Shown piece by piece: positions 6,628 through 23,932 of a stretch of 29,535 nucleotides of DNA (positions are counted from its first letter, which is position 1; the number at the start of each line of letters is the position of its first letter). Made by a program: the position numbers and the translations under genes. This DNA is from Candidatus Aerophobota bacterium. Its GTDB lineage: Bacteria; Aerophobota; Aerophobia; Aerophobales; B3-G15. The notes under the pieces are model-generated. The model searched no databases. It saw only the letters and a list, made by a program, of their open reading frames with translations, and was not told the DNA's origin. Location of the stretch: positions 1 to 29,535 of the forward strand of contig JACUUP010000009.1 in the NCBI GenBank assembly GCA_014859225.1. Reading direction: 5' to 3'.

Positions 6628-6656
6628 TTGACAAAAAGGGGAATATATAGTAGATT
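6628..6656 (+). promoter_or_regulatory. Candidate promoter of the first transporter operon
   Basis: TTGACA (6628-6633), a 17-base spacer and TAGATT (6651-6656) lie 190 bases before the first solute-binding protein gene. The -10 region is followed by TCATCAATAAACAG, similar in layout to the regulator promoter at 2240, where TAGATTAT is followed by ATTCAAACAAAG. Initiation near 6663 would give a leader of about 185 nt that includes the hairpin at 6732-6782. The rest of the 6600-6846 gap holds that hairpin and the ribosome binding site AGGAGG of the next gene. Confidence 0.6.
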
Positions 6657-6731: not shown

Positions 6732-6782
6732 GTCAGGATAAAGTCAAAAAGGAGGTGAGGGGAGAGAAGGACTAATCCTGAC
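6732..6782 (+). ncRNA. Leader hairpin presenting a Shine-Dalgarno-like loop, copy 1
   Basis: The arms GTCAGGAT (6732-6739) and ATCCTGAC (6775-6782) pair perfectly over 8 bp. An AA/A internal loop follows, then AGTC (6742-6745) pairs with GACT (6770-6773). The 24-nt loop (6746-6769) carries AGGAGGTGA at loop positions 5-13. No start codon lies at a useful distance after it. The GTG inside the motif opens only six codons. The second operon has a hairpin of the same geometry at 17985-18040 with unrelated stems. A role as a ribosome-binding mRNA stabiliser or an element that modulates SBP translation is inference. Confidence 0.6.
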
Positions 6783-6846
6783 CTGGGTGAGAAAAAAGGG
6801 ATTCCTCTAAAAAAGAGTGTCCAGTATTTAAACAGGAGGAATAATT

Positions 6847-8304
6847 ATGAGAAACAGAGCCATTAGAAGTTTGGGTGTGCTGGTAATGATTGCGGCTATG
6901 GTTCTTTTGATTGGGGGTCAGGTTTTTGGCGCTGAAAAGAAATTTAGCTTAGCCGATGTTCCGCCGATAGCAAATAAGAGGCCAATCCATGTAGCTTTGG
7001 AGGCAGGTGGCGCAGCAGACTTGATAATCCCCTATCTTAAGAAGTTTGAAGACCACACAGGAGTTAGGGTCACTTCCGAGTCCATGGTATTTGCCTCTCT
7101 TTATTCTAAGGTAATTGTGGAACTAATAGCAAAAACTGGAGCATATGACCTTGTTGTTACTGAAACTTCCTGGACAAATGAGTGGGAAGATTTTCTTTAC
7201 CCCATGGATGAACTGGCTAAAAAGTATGACCCCGAAGGAGTAAAAGGTTTTAAAGAATATTTAGCAGGTCATGACCCGGGCCTATTACGTATGTGCTCCA
7301 CCATTGATGGAACATTGATGGGAATACCCTACTACACATATACTCTCATATACATCTATCGTAAGGATGTATTTGACTATCCCTTAGAGAAGGAAAATTT
7401 TAGAAAGAGATATGGGTATGAGTTAGCTCCAGCCCAAACCTGGAGACAGCTTCACGACCAGGGTGAGTTTTTTACCAGGAAAAGAGGCGAGTTGTTAAAG
7501 GGTACGGTTCTTGAGAAAGACATTTATGGTTTAAGTATGATGGCTGGTAGATATCCTCACGTTCAAGATGAGGTGACTGCGAGATTGTGGAGCAGGGGTG
7601 GACGTTGGGCCAGGGCAGTAAGGGATGATAGAGGTGAACTTATAGGTTTTAAGATAACGGAAAAGGATAAAGAGCTACTTCAGTGGGCTTTCGAGGATTA
7701 TGTAAGGGACCTTGCGTTTGCTCCGCCTGGAACCTTGGCCGGATATTGGGATTTTGCCACAGCGCAGTTCGTGGCTGGAAACACCATCATCATACCTCAC
7801 ATATACAATTCTTTGTGGAATTGGGCTTCTTCCGTTGAAGACGAAATTACTGGTGCCAAGGCGGCTGCTGCTTTAGTTCCGGGTAACCGACCTTATACCG
7901 GGGCTTTCCATTTCTCTCCCAGCATAGATAGTAGAAATCCCGAGGCAGCTTACTGGCTCTTAAAGTACATTGGTTCTTATCAAAATCAAAAGGAAATGGC
8001 TGAAGGGGGATGGGTCTCTGTAAGAAGGGATGTTCTGGAAGAGCCTCAATATAGGGACCCAAAGTGGCATCGTCAATTTGGATGGGCACCTCCCTCGCTT
8101 GACACATGGGATGAGCAGTTGGCGGATGTGGATGAGTATCTACACTTTAACAGTGATGCATTCGGTAAGCTCTATGAGATGATGACCATTATATGTCATG
8201 AGAATGCAATTCGGCAAAGGACGCCGGCAGAAAGTGTGGAGGCGTGGGTTAGGACATTCACCGACCTTCAGACAAGACATGGGAAGCTACCAGTCTTAAA
8301 GTAA
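6847..8304 (+). CDS. Extracellular solute-binding protein of polyol/sugar ABC importer, cassette 1
   Basis: This 485-residue family-1 solute-binding protein captures the substrate outside the inner membrane. Residues 1-28 form a Sec signal peptide (MRNR start, hydrophobic VLVMIAAMVLLIGG, probable cleavage after VFG). There is no lipobox cysteine, so the mature protein should be free in a periplasm. The body carries shared landmarks of this transporter group, including KYGYELAPA-type and FFTRKRGELLKG segments, as in GlpV-like binding proteins. It is homologous along its whole length to the cassette 2 protein at 18148 but clearly diverged. The start follows AGGAGG at 6835-6840. It heads a run of genes through the importer and probably into the catabolic genes. 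A polyol or sugar substrate is inferred from the family and neighbours. Confidence 0.9.
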   Translation: MRNRAIRSLGVLVMIAAMVLLIGGQVFGAEKKFSLADVPPIANKRPIHVALEAGGAADLIIPYLKKFEDHTGVRVTSESMVFASLYSKVIVELIAKTGAYDLVVTETSWTNEWEDFLYPMDELAKKYDPEGVKGFKEYLAGHDPGLLRMCSTIDGTLMGIPYYTYTLIYIYRKDVFDYPLEKENFRKRYGYELAPAQTWRQLHDQGEFFTRKRGELLKGTVLEKDIYGLSMMAGRYPHVQDEVTARLWSRGGRWARAVRDDRGELIGFKITEKDKELLQWAFEDYVRDLAFAPPGTLAGYWDFATAQFVAGNTIIIPHIYNSLWNWASSVEDEITGAKAAAALVPGNRPYTGAFHFSPSIDSRNPEAAYWLLKYIGSYQNQKEMAEGGWVSVRRDVLEEPQYRDPKWHRQFGWAPPSLDTWDEQLADVDEYLHFNSDAFGKLYEMMTIICHENAIRQRTPAESVEAWVRTFTDLQTRHGKLPVLK

Positions 8305-10342: not shown

Positions 10343-10531
10343 ATGGAATGGGGGGATAGGCTTTTTTGGGGGATGGTGTTTTTTATTGGTATTATTTTTT
10401 TCTGGGTTGGGCTTTTGGAAAGATTTGCTCCTCTGTGGGTTGGAGTAATAATAGGATTTTTTGCCCTGTTTTTCATGCTAAAATATGGTCCTCGCCCTAA
10501 GGAAAAAGAAGAGAAAGGAAAGGGAGCCTGA
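10343..10531 (+). CDS. Small membrane protein resembling part of DUF2160, cassette 1
   Basis: This 62-residue protein has two predicted membrane segments (about residues 8-24 and 30-46) and a charged cytoplasmic tail, KYGPRPKEKEEKGKGA. From memory, the opening GDRLFWG, the central W-G-L and the ending of segment 2 resemble the C-terminal half of DUF2160 proteins. Those are encoded in GlpSTPQV-type glycerol importer operons of alphaproteobacteria. GAGGTGAT upstream supports the ATG. It is placed exactly between permease and ATPase genes, and a diverged homologue holds the same place in cassette 2, which shows it is a real gene and part of the importer. Its role is unknown. The last 20 residues fall within the 2,287-bp identical repeat, while the earlier part differs between copies. 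Confidence 0.78.
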   Translation: MEWGDRLFWGMVFFIGIIFFWVGLLERFAPLWVGVIIGFFALFFMLKYGPRPKEKEEKGKGA

Positions 10532-10535
10532 TAAG

Positions 10536-11657
10536 ATGGCCGAAGTTAAAGTTGAAAATTTAACTAAAAGCTATGGAAGACTTGTAGCGGTTAATGATGT
10601 TAGTTTTAGCTGTAAGGATGGTGAGTTTTTCACTTTCTTAGGTCCATCTGGTGCAGGAAAAACCACAACCCTTGAGCTCATTGCCGGGATAAAAAAGCCT
10701 GATTCCGGGAAAATATACATCGGTGATGAGCTTGTTAATGAGCTTCCTCCCCAGGAAAGAGATGTTGCCATGGCTTTTGAGAACTACAGCCTTTATCCAC
10801 ATTTTTCTGTCTATGAGAACATTGCCTTTCCCTTGAAAGCTCCCACAAGGAAAGAGAAACTATCCTCCAAAGAGGAAAGAAAAAGAGTTGAGGAGATGGC
10901 AAATCTTTTAGGGATTGGTGAGCTTCTGGACAGACGCCCCCAGCATTTAAGTGGCGGGCAAAGACAAAGAGTCTCCCTTGCCCGGGCCATGGTGAGAAGG
11001 CCAAGGGTTTACCTTTTAGATGAGCCCATAGCTCACCTTGATGCTAAACTAAAAGTAGCAGCAAGAACAACCCTTAAAAGACTGGCCACAAAACTTGGAA
11101 CAACCATCATTTATGTAACCCATGACTACAAGGAAGCCTTAGCTTTATCTGACCGCATCCTCATTTTAAGAGCTGGTTTGGTTGAACAAATTGGAACAGC
11201 CGAAGATGTTTATTTATCTCCGGTAACTGATTTTGTAGCAAGGCTCATAGGTGATCCTCCCATTAACCTGATAGATGGTGAGCTTGTTAGCGTGGATGAT
11301 AAGTTTTTATTTAAAGTCAATGATGAGTTTTCTTTTGAGATTCAAAAAGAAATCCTGGAAAAAGCACAAAGGATAGCCCGGCAGGAGAATGGTAAACTTA
11401 AGGTGCGTATTGGAATAAGACCTGTTTATGTTGGAGTGTCCGAGGAAAAGCTATCTCCCAACTCCTTCCAGCTTCCCGTTTATGCAGTTGAGCATGAGGC
11501 AGATAGCAGCATAGTTACCTTTGAGCTAAAAGATACCTTCTTGATAGCAAAAAAGAATAAAAAAGTTAACTGGGGCATTTCAGATAAAGTCTACCTTGAC
11601 TTTGACCAGACTCATATTCACTTTTTCAAAAAAACCTTAGAACTATCTAAAAGGTAG
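10536..11657 (+). CDS. ABC importer ATPase A (MalK-like), cassette 1
   Basis: This 373-residue nucleotide-binding subunit powers the importer. It has Walker A GPSGAGKTT (residues 36-44), signature LSGGQ (138-142), Walker B ending in Glu163 and the switch His196 in YVTHD, followed by a C-terminal TOBE-like regulatory domain (from about residue 235). The Q-loop reads AFENYSLYPH with Glu82 where MalK has Gln. I chose the ATG at 10536, after GGGAG, because the reading frame extension to 10485 overlaps the small membrane gene and lacks family similarity. It lies five bases from that gene's stop. A different ATPase follows immediately, so the working unit is probably an A/B heterodimer. An identical copy is at 21703-22824. 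Confidence 0.93.
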   Translation: MAEVKVENLTKSYGRLVAVNDVSFSCKDGEFFTFLGPSGAGKTTTLELIAGIKKPDSGKIYIGDELVNELPPQERDVAMAFENYSLYPHFSVYENIAFPLKAPTRKEKLSSKEERKRVEEMANLLGIGELLDRRPQHLSGGQRQRVSLARAMVRRPRVYLLDEPIAHLDAKLKVAARTTLKRLATKLGTTIIYVTHDYKEALALSDRILILRAGLVEQIGTAEDVYLSPVTDFVARLIGDPPINLIDGELVSVDDKFLFKVNDEFSFEIQKEILEKAQRIARQENGKLKVRIGIRPVYVGVSEEKLSPNSFQLPVYAVEHEADSSIVTFELKDTFLIAKKNKKVNWGISDKVYLDFDQTHIHFFKKTLELSKR

Positions 11658-11661
11658 GATA

Positions 11662-12753
11662 ATGAGTAGAGTTGATGCTAAAAATATATGGAAAATTTAT
11701 GCCGGAGGTGTTTTAGCCGTAAAAGAGGTAAGTTTTCACTGTGAAGATGGGGAATTTTTAGCCATCCTTGGTCCTTCTGGGTGTGGAAAATCATCCACAC
11801 TGCGCATGATTGCCGGGCTTGAGGATATAACTAAAGGTGAGCTTTTATTTGATGGGAAGCTGGTTAACAAGCTCTCCCCGCGTGAGAGAAATATCGCCCT
11901 TGCCTTTGAAACCTATGCCCTTTATGCCCCCTTAACTATTTATGAGAACATTGCCTTTCCCCTTGAGGCAGGGGGGATGAAAAGAAAACAAATAGATGAA
12001 AAAGTTAAACAAATTGCCGATATGCTTGATTTAACCGATGTTTTAAATAGGAAGCCCTCCCATTTAAGTGGTGGTCAGCAACAAAGGGTTTCCCTTGCCC
12101 GGGCACTTATTAGAGAACCAAATGTTTTTTTGCTGGATGAGCCCTTATCCCATATGGACCAGAGGGTGCGCGTTCTTCTCAGGGCAAGAATTAGAAGAAT
12201 CCATGATGAGCTTAAAGCTACAACAATCTATGTTACCCACGACCAGGAAGAAGCAGTATCCCTTGCTGACAGAATAATCGTTATGCATCTGGGTGAGATT
12301 CAGCAAACCGGGACAGTTGATGAGCTCTGGAATCATCCTAAAAATATATTTGTGGCAGGTTTTTTAGGTGAGCCAGCCATGAACTTTCTTGAGACAAAGA
12401 TTGAAAAACCAACGCAAATTTCCCTAACAACAGGAGAAAAAAAAGCTACTTTTGAGCTAAGAGGTAAAGTTGATGAGAAGTATGTTGGATGTGAGGCTAT
12501 CCTGGGTATAAGACCTGAGAGGATTGTTGTTTTAGCCGATAAAAGGGATGAGCAATCTGCTCCTTCCCTAGTTGAGGTGGTAGAGCCCTTAGGCGAGACC
12601 AAAATTGTAACAGTTAAACTTGATGATGTTGAGCTTAAAGTGGTTAGCTTGCGTGAGGTAGATACTGCGGTAGGAAAAACCATCTACCTCAAGTTTAAAC
12701 CCGAGGATATTCACCTTTTTGATAAGCAAACAGAGAAGGCTCTTTTAGCATGA
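11662..12753 (+). CDS. ABC importer ATPase B (MalK-like), cassette 1
   Basis: This 363-residue nucleotide-binding subunit partners ATPase A. It has Walker A GPSGCGKSS (from residue 37), signature LSGGQQQR (from 135), Walker B ending in Glu160, switch His193 in YVTHDQEEA and a C-terminal TOBE-like domain (MNFLETKI onward). All catalytic elements are present, so both sites of the heterodimer look competent. As in ATPase A, the Q-loop Gln is replaced (AFETYALYAP, Glu83), and the following PH is AP. The start is four bases after the ATPase A stop with AAGGTAGG upstream, so translation is probably coupled. Two ATPase genes per importer is the GlpS/GlpT arrangement rather than the single shared MalK type. 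An identical copy is at 22829-23920. Confidence 0.93.
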   Translation: MSRVDAKNIWKIYAGGVLAVKEVSFHCEDGEFLAILGPSGCGKSSTLRMIAGLEDITKGELLFDGKLVNKLSPRERNIALAFETYALYAPLTIYENIAFPLEAGGMKRKQIDEKVKQIADMLDLTDVLNRKPSHLSGGQQQRVSLARALIREPNVFLLDEPLSHMDQRVRVLLRARIRRIHDELKATTIYVTHDQEEAVSLADRIIVMHLGEIQQTGTVDELWNHPKNIFVAGFLGEPAMNFLETKIEKPTQISLTTGEKKATFELRGKVDEKYVGCEAILGIRPERIVVLADKRDEQSAPSLVEVVEPLGETKIVTVKLDDVELKVVSLREVDTAVGKTIYLKFKPEDIHLFDKQTEKALLA

Positions 12754-12800
12754 GTGAGCCACTTTTCAAAGGAAAAATCTCAAAATTAAGGAGGTAGAGC

Positions 12801-16840: not shown

Positions 16841-17941
16841 ATGAGCCTCATCATTGGTAATCCATCCAAGTATGTGCAAGGAGCAGGAGCCATTAAGGAG
16901 ATTGGAAAGTATGTGTCGGCAATGGGGGGAACAAAAGCACTTTTAATGGGAGGTCCAACAGCTCTATCTGTGTCTCAGGAGGCAATTAAAGAGAGCCTTA
17001 AACAACACAATATAGATTGTATAGTAGAAAAATTTACAGGAGAGAGCACAAGAAGTGAGGTTAACCGGCTGGTAGATATTGGAAAGAAAAACAAGGTTAA
17101 TTTTTTAATTGGAGCAGGGGGAGGAAAGGCGGTAGATGCAGCAAAGGTAGTCTCCTATTATCTTGAAGTGCCTTTAGCTTTGGTTCCTACTATTGCTGCT
17201 ACAGATGCGGCATGCAGCGCTCAGGCTCCCATATACACAGATGAGCATGTTTTTGAAGAGCTTGTTATTCGTCCGAAAAACCCGGACCTGGTTTTAGCAA
17301 GCACAGATATAATAGCAAAGGCGCCAATAAGGTTTTTTGTTGCCGGGATGGGAGATGCTATATCTACAAAGTTTGAGGCTGAAGCCTGCTGGAAAGCATC
17401 TGTCATAAATTTCCATGGAGGTAGTGTGGGTGAATCAGCTCTTTGCCTTGCCCGCTGGTGCACTGATGCGGTGATAGAGTATGGAGAGGAGGCAAAGAAA
17501 TTCCTCCAGAAAAGGGTAGTAAATGAGGTTGTGGAAAAGGTTGTGGAAGCCTGTGTTTATGCAAGTAGTGTATCTTTCGAGAACTGTGGACTTTCTATAG
17601 CTCATGGTTATCAGGTGGGATTTACCGGCTTGAAGGAGACACAACAGTATCTTCACGGAGAGATCGTTGGTTTTTCTACCCTTGCCCATATAGTTCTGGA
17701 AAATCAGCCAGAGGAAGTGAAAGATAAGGTATTCAGATTTTGTTATTCAGTTGGTTTACCTGTAACATTAGCTCAAATTGGTTTAAAAGATGCACCCAGG
17801 GAGCTTTTGATGAAGGCAATTAACGAATCCTTTGAAAGAATAGGATGGTTCAACAATGAACCATTTCCTGTTACCGCTGATATGCTTTACGAAGCACTTA
17901 TCAAAACAGATAAAAGGGGCAAAGAACTTTTGAAAAGATAG
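16841..17941 (+). CDS. gldA: Glycerol dehydrogenase (iron-type polyol dehydrogenase family)
   Basis: This 366-residue enzyme oxidises a secondary alcohol with NAD, classically glycerol to dihydroxyacetone. It has the GldA layout: NPSKYVQGAGAI at the N-terminus, nucleotide-binding GAGGGKAVDAAK, VPTIAATDAACSA, and the Zn ligands Asp172 (GMGDAIST), His255 (AHGYQ) and His272 (YLHGEIV), which match Asp173, His256 and His274 of Bacillus GldA. An ATG at 16836 is followed at once by a stop, so 16841 is the start, after AGGAGG. The gene lies between two importers of GlpSTPQV-like layout, which makes glycerol or a related polyol a plausible substrate. GldA homologues also use other 1,2-diols and some cyclitol-like substrates, so the assignment to glycerol is not final. 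Confidence 0.88.
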   Translation: MSLIIGNPSKYVQGAGAIKEIGKYVSAMGGTKALLMGGPTALSVSQEAIKESLKQHNIDCIVEKFTGESTRSEVNRLVDIGKKNKVNFLIGAGGGKAVDAAKVVSYYLEVPLALVPTIAATDAACSAQAPIYTDEHVFEELVIRPKNPDLVLASTDIIAKAPIRFFVAGMGDAISTKFEAEACWKASVINFHGGSVGESALCLARWCTDAVIEYGEEAKKFLQKRVVNEVVEKVVEACVYASSVSFENCGLSIAHGYQVGFTGLKETQQYLHGEIVGFSTLAHIVLENQPEEVKDKVFRFCYSVGLPVTLAQIGLKDAPRELLMKAINESFERIGWFNNEPFPVTADMLYEALIKTDKRGKELLKR

Positions 17942-17958
17942 ATTATGATAGTTTTAAT
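17930..17958 (+). promoter_or_regulatory. Candidate promoter of the second transporter operon
   Basis: TTGAAA (17930-17935), 17 bases and TTTAAT (17953-17958) give five of six matches in each box. The site overlaps the end of the glycerol dehydrogenase gene. TAGATTAT at 17939-17946 lies between the boxes, a typical operator position, and recurs near the promoters at 2240 and 6628. Initiation near 17965 would place the leader hairpin at 17985 about 20 nt from the 5' end. The rest of the 17942-18147 gap holds only the hairpin and the SBP ribosome binding site. Confidence 0.4.
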
Positions 17959-17984: not shown

Positions 17985-18040
17985 AAGCTAAAGACAAAAG
18001 CCGAAGAGGAGGTGATAAGGCAGGTAGGCTACTTTAGCTT
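17985..18040 (+). ncRNA. Leader hairpin presenting a Shine-Dalgarno-like loop, copy 2
   Basis: AAGCTAAAG (17985-17993) and CTTTAGCTT (18032-18040) pair perfectly over 9 bp. A 5-nt/1-nt bulge follows, then AGCC (17999-18002) pairs with GGCT (18027-18030). The 24-nt loop at 18003-18026 has AGGAGGTGA at loop positions 5-13. Loop length and motif position are identical to the hairpin at 6732-6782, although the stems share no sequence. The real SBP start codon is 107 bases further on and has its own ribosome binding site. Confidence 0.6.
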
Positions 18041-18147
18041 GGGGTTAACTACTGAAACGGCAGGTTGTATTGATATTTATGTGAAGGAAACTTCCACCGA
18101 AAGTTAAGTTATACGAAAATATACTCCAATAAAGAAAGGAGTAAAGC

Positions 18148-19602
18148 ATGAAAAAAAGTATGATTGTAATATCGGTCGCGGTAGTGGTGAGCTTTCTTCT
18201 CCTGTTTGCAGGCCAGGTTTTTAGCGCTGAGAAAAGGTTTGGTTTAGCTGATATTCCAGAGATAGCAAACAAAAGGGCCCTGACTTTAGCTCTTGAGGCA
18301 GGAGGGGAAGAGGATACTTTGCTCCCGTTTGTTAGAAAGTTTGAGGAAAAAACAGGAATTAAGGTTAACACTGAGGTTATGCTATTTGCAGTAATGTACG
18401 CTAAGGAAAACATAGAGCTTGTGGGAAAAACCGGAGCCTATGATGTTGTTATTGTGGAAGCTTCCTGGACAAATGAGTGGGCGCCTTACCTTTGGTCTCT
18501 GGAAGAGCTTGCTAAAAAGTATGAGCCTGAAGGAGTGGAAGCGATAAGGCGAGATTTGGCTTATCTTGATGCGGGTCTTATGCGTATGGCTTCCACCCGC
18601 GAGGGAGTAGCTTATGGATGGCCCTATGAGTGCTATACATTAATGATGATGTATCGTGATGATGTATTCAATCACCCTCAGGAAAGAGAAAATTTCAGGA
18701 AAAAGTATGGGTACGAACTTGCTCCTGCTCTTGATTTTAGCCAGTTGCGTGACCAGGCTGAGTTTTTCACCAGAAAAAGGGGAGAACTGTTAAAGGGTAG
18801 ACCGCTCAAGCATGACCTTTACGGTTTAGGTCTTATGGCTGGTAGATTCCCCCATGTTCAGGATGAGATAACCGCCATCCTCTGGGGTATGGGTGGACGT
18901 TGGGCCAGGACAATCAGGGACAAGGAAGGTAATGCAATAGGGTTTAAGATAACCCCGCGAGATAAAGCTCTATTAAAAGCTGCTTTTGAGATATATGTGG
19001 ACCTGCTCCAGTTTACTCCTCCTGGAACCTTAAACGCTTTCTGGGATTTTGTTATGGCACAGTTTTCCGCGGGAAATATCATCATTGCGCCTACCTTGTA
19101 TGATAGTTGTTATCCCTGGATGAGTGCATGGGGACCTGATGTTGCCGCTGATGCCAGGATTGGCGGTGCTCCAACTCCGATGAAGCAACCTTACTGTGGT
19201 AATTTCCATTTTGCCGTTGCCCGGGATAGTAAAAACCCTGAGGGAGCTTACTGGCTTTCCAAGTATATGGGCTCCTATGAGGTTCACAAGGCATGGATAG
19301 AGGCAGGATTTGTCCCCTCGCGCAGGGACGTTGTGGAAGAGCCTATGTATAGAGACCCGGCACTGCATGAGACAACTGGGTGGATACCTACCATGCTTGA
19401 GACCTGGGATTATCAGTATCCATTTGTAAGCACCTATCTACATTTCAATAGCGCTGCTTTCGGCAAAATTTACGATTACATGACTGAGCTGTGTCACAAT
19501 GTTGCAAGGGGCGCTCTGACACCAGAGAGGGGTGTGGAAGAGTGGGTAAAGACTTTTACTGAACTGCAAACAAAGTTTGGAAAACTGCCCGTCTTGAGAT
19601 AA
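18148..19602 (+). CDS. Extracellular solute-binding protein of polyol/sugar ABC importer, cassette 2
   Basis: This 484-residue binding protein is the cassette 2 counterpart of the protein at 6847. The signal peptide spans about residues 1-26 (MKKSM, then hydrophobic VVVSFLLLFAG, probable cleavage after VFS). No lipobox cysteine is present. The two mature proteins align from the RFGLAD/KFSLAD start to the KLPVL end, with shared landmarks YGYELAPA, FFTRKRGELLKG, AGR-PHVQDE and HFNS-AFGK. Many positions differ, including GWPYECYT against GIPYYTYT and the region around residue 320, so ligand preference may differ. GAAAGGAG precedes the ATG. It leads its own operon, from a probable promoter at 17930. 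A polyol or sugar ligand is inferred. Confidence 0.9.
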   Translation: MKKSMIVISVAVVVSFLLLFAGQVFSAEKRFGLADIPEIANKRALTLALEAGGEEDTLLPFVRKFEEKTGIKVNTEVMLFAVMYAKENIELVGKTGAYDVVIVEASWTNEWAPYLWSLEELAKKYEPEGVEAIRRDLAYLDAGLMRMASTREGVAYGWPYECYTLMMMYRDDVFNHPQERENFRKKYGYELAPALDFSQLRDQAEFFTRKRGELLKGRPLKHDLYGLGLMAGRFPHVQDEITAILWGMGGRWARTIRDKEGNAIGFKITPRDKALLKAAFEIYVDLLQFTPPGTLNAFWDFVMAQFSAGNIIIAPTLYDSCYPWMSAWGPDVAADARIGGAPTPMKQPYCGNFHFAVARDSKNPEGAYWLSKYMGSYEVHKAWIEAGFVPSRRDVVEEPMYRDPALHETTGWIPTMLETWDYQYPFVSTYLHFNSAAFGKIYDYMTELCHNVARGALTPERGVEEWVKTFTELQTKFGKLPVLR

Positions 19603-21509: not shown

Positions 21510-21698
21510 ATGACCTGGGGAAATAGACTTTTCTGGGGACTTATCTTTTTCTTTGGTTTTCATCTTGTGTGGCTTGGTGTTTTAGAGAAATTTGGCCCGG
21601 TATGGATTGCCACAGTTGTAGGTGCTTTTTTTGTTTTTTTCATGCTAAAATATGGTCCTCGCCCTAAGGAAAAAGAAGAGAAAGGAAAGGGAGCCTGA
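21510..21698 (+). CDS. Small membrane protein resembling part of DUF2160, cassette 2
   Basis: This 62-residue protein has two membrane segments and a charged tail, identical in length to the cassette 1 protein at 10343. Residues 1-42 differ at many places (MTWGNRLFWGLIFFFGFHLV against MEWGDRLFWGMVFFIGIIFF), while the final 20 are identical because the 2,287-bp repeat begins there. Retention of length, topology and the W-G-NRLF/DRLF start under this divergence indicates selection for function. Its position between permease and ATPase genes suggests that it contacts the transporter complex. The resemblance to DUF2160 is by eye and from memory. Its function is unknown. Confidence 0.78.
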   Translation: MTWGNRLFWGLIFFFGFHLVWLGVLEKFGPVWIATVVGAFFVFFMLKYGPRPKEKEEKGKGA

Positions 21699-21702
21699 TA
21701 AG

Positions 21703-22824
21703 ATGGCCGAAGTTAAAGTTGAAAATTTAACTAAAAGCTATGGAAGACTTGTAGCGGTTAATGATGTTAGTTTTAGCTGTAAGGATGGTGAGTTTTTCAC
21801 TTTCTTAGGTCCATCTGGTGCAGGAAAAACCACAACCCTTGAGCTCATTGCCGGGATAAAAAAGCCTGATTCCGGGAAAATATACATCGGTGATGAGCTT
21901 GTTAATGAGCTTCCTCCCCAGGAAAGAGATGTTGCCATGGCTTTTGAGAACTACAGCCTTTATCCACATTTTTCTGTCTATGAGAACATTGCCTTTCCCT
22001 TGAAAGCTCCCACAAGGAAAGAGAAACTATCCTCCAAAGAGGAAAGAAAAAGAGTTGAGGAGATGGCAAATCTTTTAGGGATTGGTGAGCTTCTGGACAG
22101 ACGCCCCCAGCATTTAAGTGGCGGGCAAAGACAAAGAGTCTCCCTTGCCCGGGCCATGGTGAGAAGGCCAAGGGTTTACCTTTTAGATGAGCCCATAGCT
22201 CACCTTGATGCTAAACTAAAAGTAGCAGCAAGAACAACCCTTAAAAGACTGGCCACAAAACTTGGAACAACCATCATTTATGTAACCCATGACTACAAGG
22301 AAGCCTTAGCTTTATCTGACCGCATCCTCATTTTAAGAGCTGGTTTGGTTGAACAAATTGGAACAGCCGAAGATGTTTATTTATCTCCGGTAACTGATTT
22401 TGTAGCAAGGCTCATAGGTGATCCTCCCATTAACCTGATAGATGGTGAGCTTGTTAGCGTGGATGATAAGTTTTTATTTAAAGTCAATGATGAGTTTTCT
22501 TTTGAGATTCAAAAAGAAATCCTGGAAAAAGCACAAAGGATAGCCCGGCAGGAGAATGGTAAACTTAAGGTGCGTATTGGAATAAGACCTGTTTATGTTG
22601 GAGTGTCCGAGGAAAAGCTATCTCCCAACTCCTTCCAGCTTCCCGTTTATGCAGTTGAGCATGAGGCAGATAGCAGCATAGTTACCTTTGAGCTAAAAGA
22701 TACCTTCTTGATAGCAAAAAAGAATAAAAAAGTTAACTGGGGCATTTCAGATAAAGTCTACCTTGACTTTGACCAGACTCATATTCACTTTTTCAAAAAA
22801 ACCTTAGAACTATCTAAAAGGTAG
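21703..22824 (+). CDS. ABC importer ATPase A (MalK-like), cassette 2
   Basis: This 373-residue ATPase is identical to the product at 10536-11657, including silent sites as far as I compared. Walker A, LSGGQ, Walker B and the switch His are intact, and the Q-loop position again carries Glu82. It starts at the ATG five bases after the small membrane gene stop. Because the protein is the same in both cassettes, one ATPase pair can in principle serve both sets of permeases, and the duplicate mainly sets dosage and co-expression with the second channel. Confidence 0.93.
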   Translation: MAEVKVENLTKSYGRLVAVNDVSFSCKDGEFFTFLGPSGAGKTTTLELIAGIKKPDSGKIYIGDELVNELPPQERDVAMAFENYSLYPHFSVYENIAFPLKAPTRKEKLSSKEERKRVEEMANLLGIGELLDRRPQHLSGGQRQRVSLARAMVRRPRVYLLDEPIAHLDAKLKVAARTTLKRLATKLGTTIIYVTHDYKEALALSDRILILRAGLVEQIGTAEDVYLSPVTDFVARLIGDPPINLIDGELVSVDDKFLFKVNDEFSFEIQKEILEKAQRIARQENGKLKVRIGIRPVYVGVSEEKLSPNSFQLPVYAVEHEADSSIVTFELKDTFLIAKKNKKVNWGISDKVYLDFDQTHIHFFKKTLELSKR

Positions 22825-22828
22825 GATA

Positions 22829-23920
22829 ATGAGTAGAGTTGATGCTAAAAATATATGGAAAATTTATGCCGGAGGTGTTTTAGCCGTAAAAGAGGTAAGT
22901 TTTCACTGTGAAGATGGGGAATTTTTAGCCATCCTTGGTCCTTCTGGGTGTGGAAAATCATCCACACTGCGCATGATTGCCGGGCTTGAGGATATAACTA
23001 AAGGTGAGCTTTTATTTGATGGGAAGCTGGTTAACAAGCTCTCCCCGCGTGAGAGAAATATCGCCCTTGCCTTTGAAACCTATGCCCTTTATGCCCCCTT
23101 AACTATTTATGAGAACATTGCCTTTCCCCTTGAGGCAGGGGGGATGAAAAGAAAACAAATAGATGAAAAAGTTAAACAAATTGCCGATATGCTTGATTTA
23201 ACCGATGTTTTAAATAGGAAGCCCTCCCATTTAAGTGGTGGTCAGCAACAAAGGGTTTCCCTTGCCCGGGCACTTATTAGAGAACCAAATGTTTTTTTGC
23301 TGGATGAGCCCTTATCCCATATGGACCAGAGGGTGCGCGTTCTTCTCAGGGCAAGAATTAGAAGAATCCATGATGAGCTTAAAGCTACAACAATCTATGT
23401 TACCCACGACCAGGAAGAAGCAGTATCCCTTGCTGACAGAATAATCGTTATGCATCTGGGTGAGATTCAGCAAACCGGGACAGTTGATGAGCTCTGGAAT
23501 CATCCTAAAAATATATTTGTGGCAGGTTTTTTAGGTGAGCCAGCCATGAACTTTCTTGAGACAAAGATTGAAAAACCAACGCAAATTTCCCTAACAACAG
23601 GAGAAAAAAAAGCTACTTTTGAGCTAAGAGGTAAAGTTGATGAGAAGTATGTTGGATGTGAGGCTATCCTGGGTATAAGACCTGAGAGGATTGTTGTTTT
23701 AGCCGATAAAAGGGATGAGCAATCTGCTCCTTCCCTAGTTGAGGTGGTAGAGCCCTTAGGCGAGACCAAAATTGTAACAGTTAAACTTGATGATGTTGAG
23801 CTTAAAGTGGTTAGCTTGCGTGAGGTAGATACTGCGGTAGGAAAAACCATCTACCTCAAGTTTAAACCCGAGGATATTCACCTTTTTGATAAGCAAACAG
23901 AGAAGGCTCTTTTAGCATGA
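22829..23920 (+). CDS. ABC importer ATPase B (MalK-like), cassette 2
   Basis: This 363-residue ATPase is identical to the product at 11662-12753. The catalytic motifs are complete, and Glu83 replaces the Q-loop Gln. It is the last gene of the second importer operon. After its stop the sequence diverges from cassette 1 and runs into a MITE-like element, with no catabolic genes following. No clear intrinsic terminator is visible at the end of the operon. Confidence 0.93.
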   Translation: MSRVDAKNIWKIYAGGVLAVKEVSFHCEDGEFLAILGPSGCGKSSTLRMIAGLEDITKGELLFDGKLVNKLSPRERNIALAFETYALYAPLTIYENIAFPLEAGGMKRKQIDEKVKQIADMLDLTDVLNRKPSHLSGGQQQRVSLARALIREPNVFLLDEPLSHMDQRVRVLLRARIRRIHDELKATTIYVTHDQEEAVSLADRIIVMHLGEIQQTGTVDELWNHPKNIFVAGFLGEPAMNFLETKIEKPTQISLTTGEKKATFELRGKVDEKYVGCEAILGIRPERIVVLADKRDEQSAPSLVEVVEPLGETKIVTVKLDDVELKVVSLREVDTAVGKTIYLKFKPEDIHLFDKQTEKALLA

Positions 23921-23932
23921 GTATTTGAGGGG

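Follow-up and report, generated by a model that had tools for sequence, protein, structure and literature searches.

Why would a strong Shine-Dalgarno (SD) sequence be held in the loop of an RNA hairpin, with no start codon at a working distance, ahead of a gene that has an SD of its own? The question is raised by a 29,535-nt stretch of Candidatus Aerophobota DNA (contig JACUUP010000009.1; hereafter the window), where two solute-binding protein (SBP) genes are each preceded by such a hairpin, here called P1, at 6732..6782 and 17985..18040 on the + strand. A hairpin with compensating changes recurs in every Aerophobota genome searched, so the window hairpins are not chance. Rather, Aerophobota have a family of structured leader RNAs, and P1 is its 5′ domain.

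P1 belongs to a structured leader RNA family

Orthologues of the window SBPs in three related genomes (G011, G012 and G014) and paralogues in two (G011 and G001) served as the source of related leaders, which retain the octamer GGAGGUGA 67–96 nt upstream of the gene. In a structural alignment of five leaders, with rows N-padded so that equal structural positions line up, 92% of cells were paired and six pairs had changed on both sides. Five leaders of orthologous or paralogous genes, the two window hairpins among them, went into a covariance model (R1), which matched strongly in 17/17 genomes of the order and only weakly in 44 others (best E 0.0065). With 60 matches added to this set, the resulting model (R2) found 174 copies in 17/17 Aerophobota genomes at E ≤ 0.01 and, outside the phylum, one copy in 273 genomes at E ≤ 0.001. 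Many matches lie upstream of SBP genes that a protein search had listed independently; a plasmid collection searched with the leader gave no match. A sequence-only reading of the window had proposed such a covariance-model search, and the outcome is strongly positive, with covarying pairs and a near-invariant SD in the loop.

Hairpin 1 comprises an 8-bp outer stem (6732–6739/6775–6782), a 4-bp inner stem (6742–6745/6770–6773) and a 24-nt loop (6746–6769), in which positions 5–13 hold the SD AGGAGGTGA (6750..6758, + strand). It is seen in the sequence, as a model match (68.6 bits with R1, of which it is a training member, and 53.9 bits with R2) and as its own minimum free energy (MFE) structure (−12.6 kcal/mol, z −3.7, 0/200 shuffles). 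Hairpin 2 has a 9-bp outer stem (17985–17993/18032–18040), an inner stem at 17999–18002/18027–18030 and a 24-nt loop (18003–18026) with the same SD (18007..18015, + strand). It is weak when folded alone (z −1.6), the MFE fold keeping the outer stem and pairing part of the loop, and its structure therefore rests on comparative evidence, including a model match of 64.4 bits with R1 (again as a training member) and 66.3 bits with R2. The anatomy first described for both hairpins is thus accurate to the coordinate.

Over 102 copies of P1, in alignments fitted to the model and hence with pairing counts that lean towards it, 94.5% of cells are paired and 11 of the 12 pairs show two-sided changes, in 86 cells against 20.7 in shuffles. 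Pairing has been kept while bases changed, as expected of the selected RNA structure that had been claimed. The consensus reads AAGCU[AG][AG]A, an AAUAA bulge, GGCC, about four purines, GGAGGUGA, GAAAGNUAGRUA, GGCC, two nucleotides, UUAGCUU and GGG. The sequence-only reading had also held that the stems of the two window hairpins share no sequence. This was wrong: intermediate stems in related leaders (AAGTCAGG, AAGCCAGG and AAGCTAAAG) bridge GTCAGGAT and AAGCTAAAG, all fit AAGCU[AG][AG]A, and the window stems are therefore homologous; the idea that they are unrelated in sequence was rejected. About 10–30 nt upstream of P1, many leaders (loci L094–L152) carry a recurring A/U-rich string like (U)AGAUCUUUU, which may belong to a promoter or be another RNA element.

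In a genome outside Aerophobota, one locus, L235 (G140:C4:27968–28030), has a hairpin built in the same way about 130 nt upstream of a porin-like gene; it pairs UUUCUGGU/ACCAGAAA and GCC/GGC, and its loop holds AGGAGGUGA. Its stem sequence is unrelated to P1, and it is the only clear SD-loop hairpin in 400 kb of that other-phylum genome. It hints that the principle of an SD-loop hairpin may be wider than Aerophobota.

A second hairpin and a tail follow P1

The sequence-only reading proved incomplete in that P1 is part of a larger leader, composed of P1, a second hairpin (P2) and a tail, which is phylum-wide and marks SBP genes generally. P2 is a long two-part hairpin found in 67 leaders, usually 3–6 nt after P1, with a conserved loop segment, UUGAAARAUUAA; the conserved, unpaired tail RAAAAAUGAACNAUGUC comes after it. 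The segment that follows P1 folds with a median z of −2.4, against +0.2 upstream of P1. All P2 pairs (20/20) show two-sided changes, in 254 cells versus 93 in shuffles, counted in a table that was seeded by hand with N-padded rows and includes 16 rows that do not adjoin P1, among which are antisense matches to the near-palindromic hairpin. Slide and shuffle controls agree with the pairing counts for P1, as does an all-against-all ranking of covariation in 55 joined leaders, where the strongest signals are the P1 and P2 pairs as drawn. Among these top covariations there was no pseudoknot or alternative pairing, such as one between the SD loop and other parts of the leader, and a pseudoknot of this kind was rejected on that ground.

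Several leaders are without a canonical P2, and none was found in either window leader. The second window leader retains a trace of the single-stranded tail that follows P2 in related leaders (ACCGAAAGUUAAGUUAUACG, 18096..18115, + strand; a weak model match of 9.4 bits with filters off). Other arrangements also occur. Two tandem P1–P2 units precede one SBP gene at L194 (G004:C201), and at L172 (G007:C65:21993–22045) and L226 (G003:C30:6306–6349) P1 is followed by a P2-like hairpin and tail with no recognisable open reading frame downstream, either as an orphan leader or beside a decayed gene.

The loop carries an orphan complement of the 16S tail

The loop octamer is near invariant (G100 G99 A93 G101 G101 U97 G101 A98 of 102), and its commonest change, A to G opposite a U of the anti-SD, retains pairing. 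A 16S rRNA ending in GGATCACCTCCTTT is present in 7 of the Aerophobota genomes. Predicted duplexes with this tail have median energies of −17.4 kcal/mol for the loop, −11.2 kcal/mol for the genes' own SDs and −3.3 kcal/mol for the control, and the loop forms the stronger duplex in 104/106 leaders. Complementarity of the octamer to the 16S tail is supported by these data.

If the GTG that the SD motif creates is left out of the count, a start codon lies 5–12 nt away in only about 17/118 loops; the description of an orphan SD, lacking both a proper start codon and a shared leader peptide, is upheld. We give next to no weight to a leader peptide or attenuator, in which the loop SD would drive a short open reading frame. 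Each copy with GGAGGTGA does contain a GTG inside the octamer, but this codon overlaps the SD itself, and the frames vary in length and sequence. Neither start nor frame is conserved across leaders, and the comparative data already contradict this reading, which was rejected.

G-rich loops in stable hairpins are typical docking sites for small RNAs, and a C-rich, trans-acting small RNA carrying UCACCUCC might kiss the loop. We regard this as very unlikely: a seed complementary to GGAGGUGA would match many other genes at their SDs as well, the octamer is identical to the 16S complement, and no such RNA turned up, though no search for one was made. Sequestration of the gene's own SD was likewise considered. 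In the window fold, a pyrimidine stretch before the SD of SBP gene 1 pairs with it, but the own SDs of 106 leaders are not unusually paired, and the candidate was rejected.

Downstream genes share no metabolite

SBPs, which differ in substrate class, make up about nine in ten of the 107 proteins encoded downstream: 58 SBP_bac_1, 20 SBP_bac_5, 5 DctP, 5 Peripla_BP_4, 5 SBP_bac_6 and 3 Peripla_BP_6, with some overlap. The remaining products include GroES, dehydrogenases, a GH65 enzyme, an aminotransferase and a porphyromonas-type deiminase. At L189 (G003:C14:13516–13578 and downstream) the gene behind a P1 and P2 leader is groES, which is not a transport gene. SBPs of many families, together with groES, dehydrogenases and GH65, do not show the single metabolic theme of a metabolite riboswitch; they suggest that what the targets have in common is abundance of the product, itself an assumption here, and not a ligand.

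These genes bear directly on a second account of the leader, as a regulated switch. P1, P2 and the tail would bind a sensor of nutrient or growth state, either a protein or a small molecule, and many uptake operons would thereby be gated at translation; the SD-like loop would be part of the recognition site or would be masked and unmasked. The target set does resemble a regulon, P2 and the tail are kept beside P1, and there are conserved unpaired segments beyond the SD, namely the AAUAA bulge, the UAGRUA of the loop, the P2 loop and the tail. Against this, the substrates of the targets are unrelated and groES and enzymes are among them, the covariations contain no alternative pairing, and several leaders, including both window copies, do without canonical P2. 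CsrA, a known reader of GGA loops, was absent from 17/17 Aerophobota genomes (PF02599) and found in three control genomes, and a CsrA binding site was rejected. Rfam 15 gave no match at gathering in the window and none below E 0.9 in 11 related loci, which led us to reject a known RNA family or riboswitch class. On balance we consider a switch unlikely, though a contender to be taken seriously.

We found no paper, in the literature searched, on Aerophobetes riboswitches or non-coding RNA or on an SD-loop leader. The assertion that no described element has this form stands, and the leader RNA family is, by Rfam and this literature, previously undescribed.

In the window, SBP gene 1 (6847..8304, + strand) is served by the hairpin 1 leader and has its own SD, AGGAGG, adjoining the ATG (6834..6839, + strand); SBP gene 2 lies at 18148..19602 (+ strand). 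Both products are SBP_bac_1 proteins with a signal peptide, and their closest named relatives, 83–85% identical, occur in two Aerophobetes metagenome-assembled genomes. The parallel operons also contain two ABC-ATPase genes that share an exactly identical 2287-bp block (10469–12755 and 21636–23922), whose limits nearly coincide with the gene ends; the SBP and permease genes on either side have diverged. The block could stem from a recent duplication or gene conversion, or it could be an assembly effect.

Spacing, promoters and RNA-decay enzymes

The distance from the P1 end to the ATG is 85–131 nt in 70/113 leaders, and in about four fifths of those that bear P2 its base is 29–63 nt upstream of the ATG. 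Upstream promoter-like sites are enriched about fourfold (32/117 at a score ≥10 versus 8 expected), at varied distances, unlike the regular distance from P1 to the start codon. Many of their −10 elements, though not in all leaders, lie 9–40 nt before P1, so that P1 can be near the 5′ end of the transcript. The window offers two such sites, both consensus matches only: TTGACA-17-TAGATT (6628..6656, + strand), 73 nt upstream of the matched start of hairpin 1, and TTGAAA-17-TTTAAT (17930..17958, + strand), 26 nt upstream of the second P1.

A start near P1 is what one would look for in a Stab-SD proper, where a 30S ribosomal subunit bound to the loop would block a 5′-to-3′ exonuclease, as in Bacillus cry3A. 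The sequence-only reading had drawn this analogy, and one half of it holds: the 5′ leader contains an orphan SD that is complementary to the 16S tail and has no initiation site. The enrichment of promoter-like sites upstream also speaks for it. The other half, RNase J, the exonuclease that a Stab-SD blocks, scored above the TIGR00649 family cut-off in 0/17 Aerophobota genomes, which contained only two distant beta-CASP proteins; incomplete assemblies limit all gene-absence claims here, though the same absence in 17 of them is hard to explain by gaps. The analogy is weakened for this reason. Further, the spacing between P1 and the start codon is regular; a 5′ roadblock would not need this, and it favours action on translation of the gene. 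A Stab-SD in the strict sense is accordingly improbable in our estimation. As a set, the RNA-decay genes of the 17 genomes are unusual, with RNase Y in 14 and RNase J, RNase E/G and CsrA above the cut-offs in none.

A docking site for the 30S subunit as the proposed mechanism

With moderate confidence, our best explanation is that the structured leader keeps a maximal orphan SD unpaired in a purine-rich loop, where a 30S subunit would dock and raise translation, messenger stability or both. Most likely, the subunit would dock on the P1 loop through its anti-SD tail. As no start codon is within reach, it would not initiate there; it might either pass to the gene's own ribosome-binding site or protect the 5′ region of the messenger against decay. 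P2 would fold away about 58 nt and thereby bring its base to about 30–60 nt from the ATG. The outcome would be high output of the operon's first, stoichiometrically abundant protein, such as an SBP or GroES.

Several observations weigh against 30S docking, which is itself a prediction. A few loops break the anti-SD pairing (GGAGGCGA in three leaders of genome G005). The predicted unpaired probability of the own SDs is 0.66 versus 0.67 for the loop; the own SDs being as accessible as the loop, the classical need for standby, a structured ribosome-binding site, lacks support. The stem, the AAUAA bulge, the UAGRUA in the 3′ part of the loop, the P2 loop and the tail are conserved beyond what SD presentation needs, which could mean recognition by a protein or ligand. 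Finally, in two genomes the element stands at only about half of the SBP_bac_1 genes (about 21/40 in G007 and 6/12 in G000, by hand comparison).

More tentatively, the leaders could form a categorically new, phylum-wide class, with an average of about 10 copies per genome, in which the 30S subunit itself is the effector. The hairpin would present a decoy or docking SD, P2 and the tail would act as a relay, and uptake and other envelope genes would have their output set as one post-transcriptional regulon. Whatever its effector, the element adds a family of structured RNAs that is conserved throughout an uncultured phylum and sits at genes for food uptake. If the loop docks 30S, it would be the first conserved, folded ribosome-docking leader known to us. 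An orphan SD that recruits, parks or protects could then be told apart in a background apparently without RNase J and CsrA. The same mechanism suggests how SBPs could be expressed above the permeases of their own operon.

Comparison with known systems

The cry3A Stab-SD is reportedly to be credited to Agaisse and Lereclus in 1996. In the Bacillus thuringiensis cry3A messenger it is a non-initiating SD in the 5′ untranslated region, complementary to the 3′ end of 16S rRNA (PMC4113751). The Aerophobota leader likewise has a 16S-complementary SD in the 5′ untranslated region, with no initiation codon, upstream of genes for probably abundant proteins. Unlike the Stab-SD, it presents this SD in a hairpin loop whose stem is conserved and covaries, and a second hairpin and a tail come after it. 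The spacing to the start codon is regular, and no RNase J exceeds the family cut-off in these genomes.

Ribosome standby sites, in the model of de Smit and van Duin, give the 30S subunit a landing place upstream of the real ribosome-binding site, and the Aerophobota loop is a putative landing place of this kind. To our knowledge, known standby sites are mostly unstructured and do not form a conserved family, unlike the element described here, which is a conserved folded family whose own ribosome-binding sites are not predicted to be structured.

With riboswitches and the structured leaders of Rfam 15 the element shares a covarying, multi-hairpin 5′ leader with conserved unpaired segments; it differs in matching no Rfam family, in having targets that share no metabolite, and in that its most conserved segment is the anti-SD complement. 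Hairpins bound by CsrA or RsmA also show GGA in the hairpin loop of a 5′ leader, but the Aerophobota loop is 24 nt long rather than short, carries the full GGAGGUGA octamer and occurs in genomes without CsrA. Since no RNase J was found above the cut-off, we do not file the leader as a Stab-SD. The element works most like a Stab-SD or a standby site, and we file it as a member of neither.
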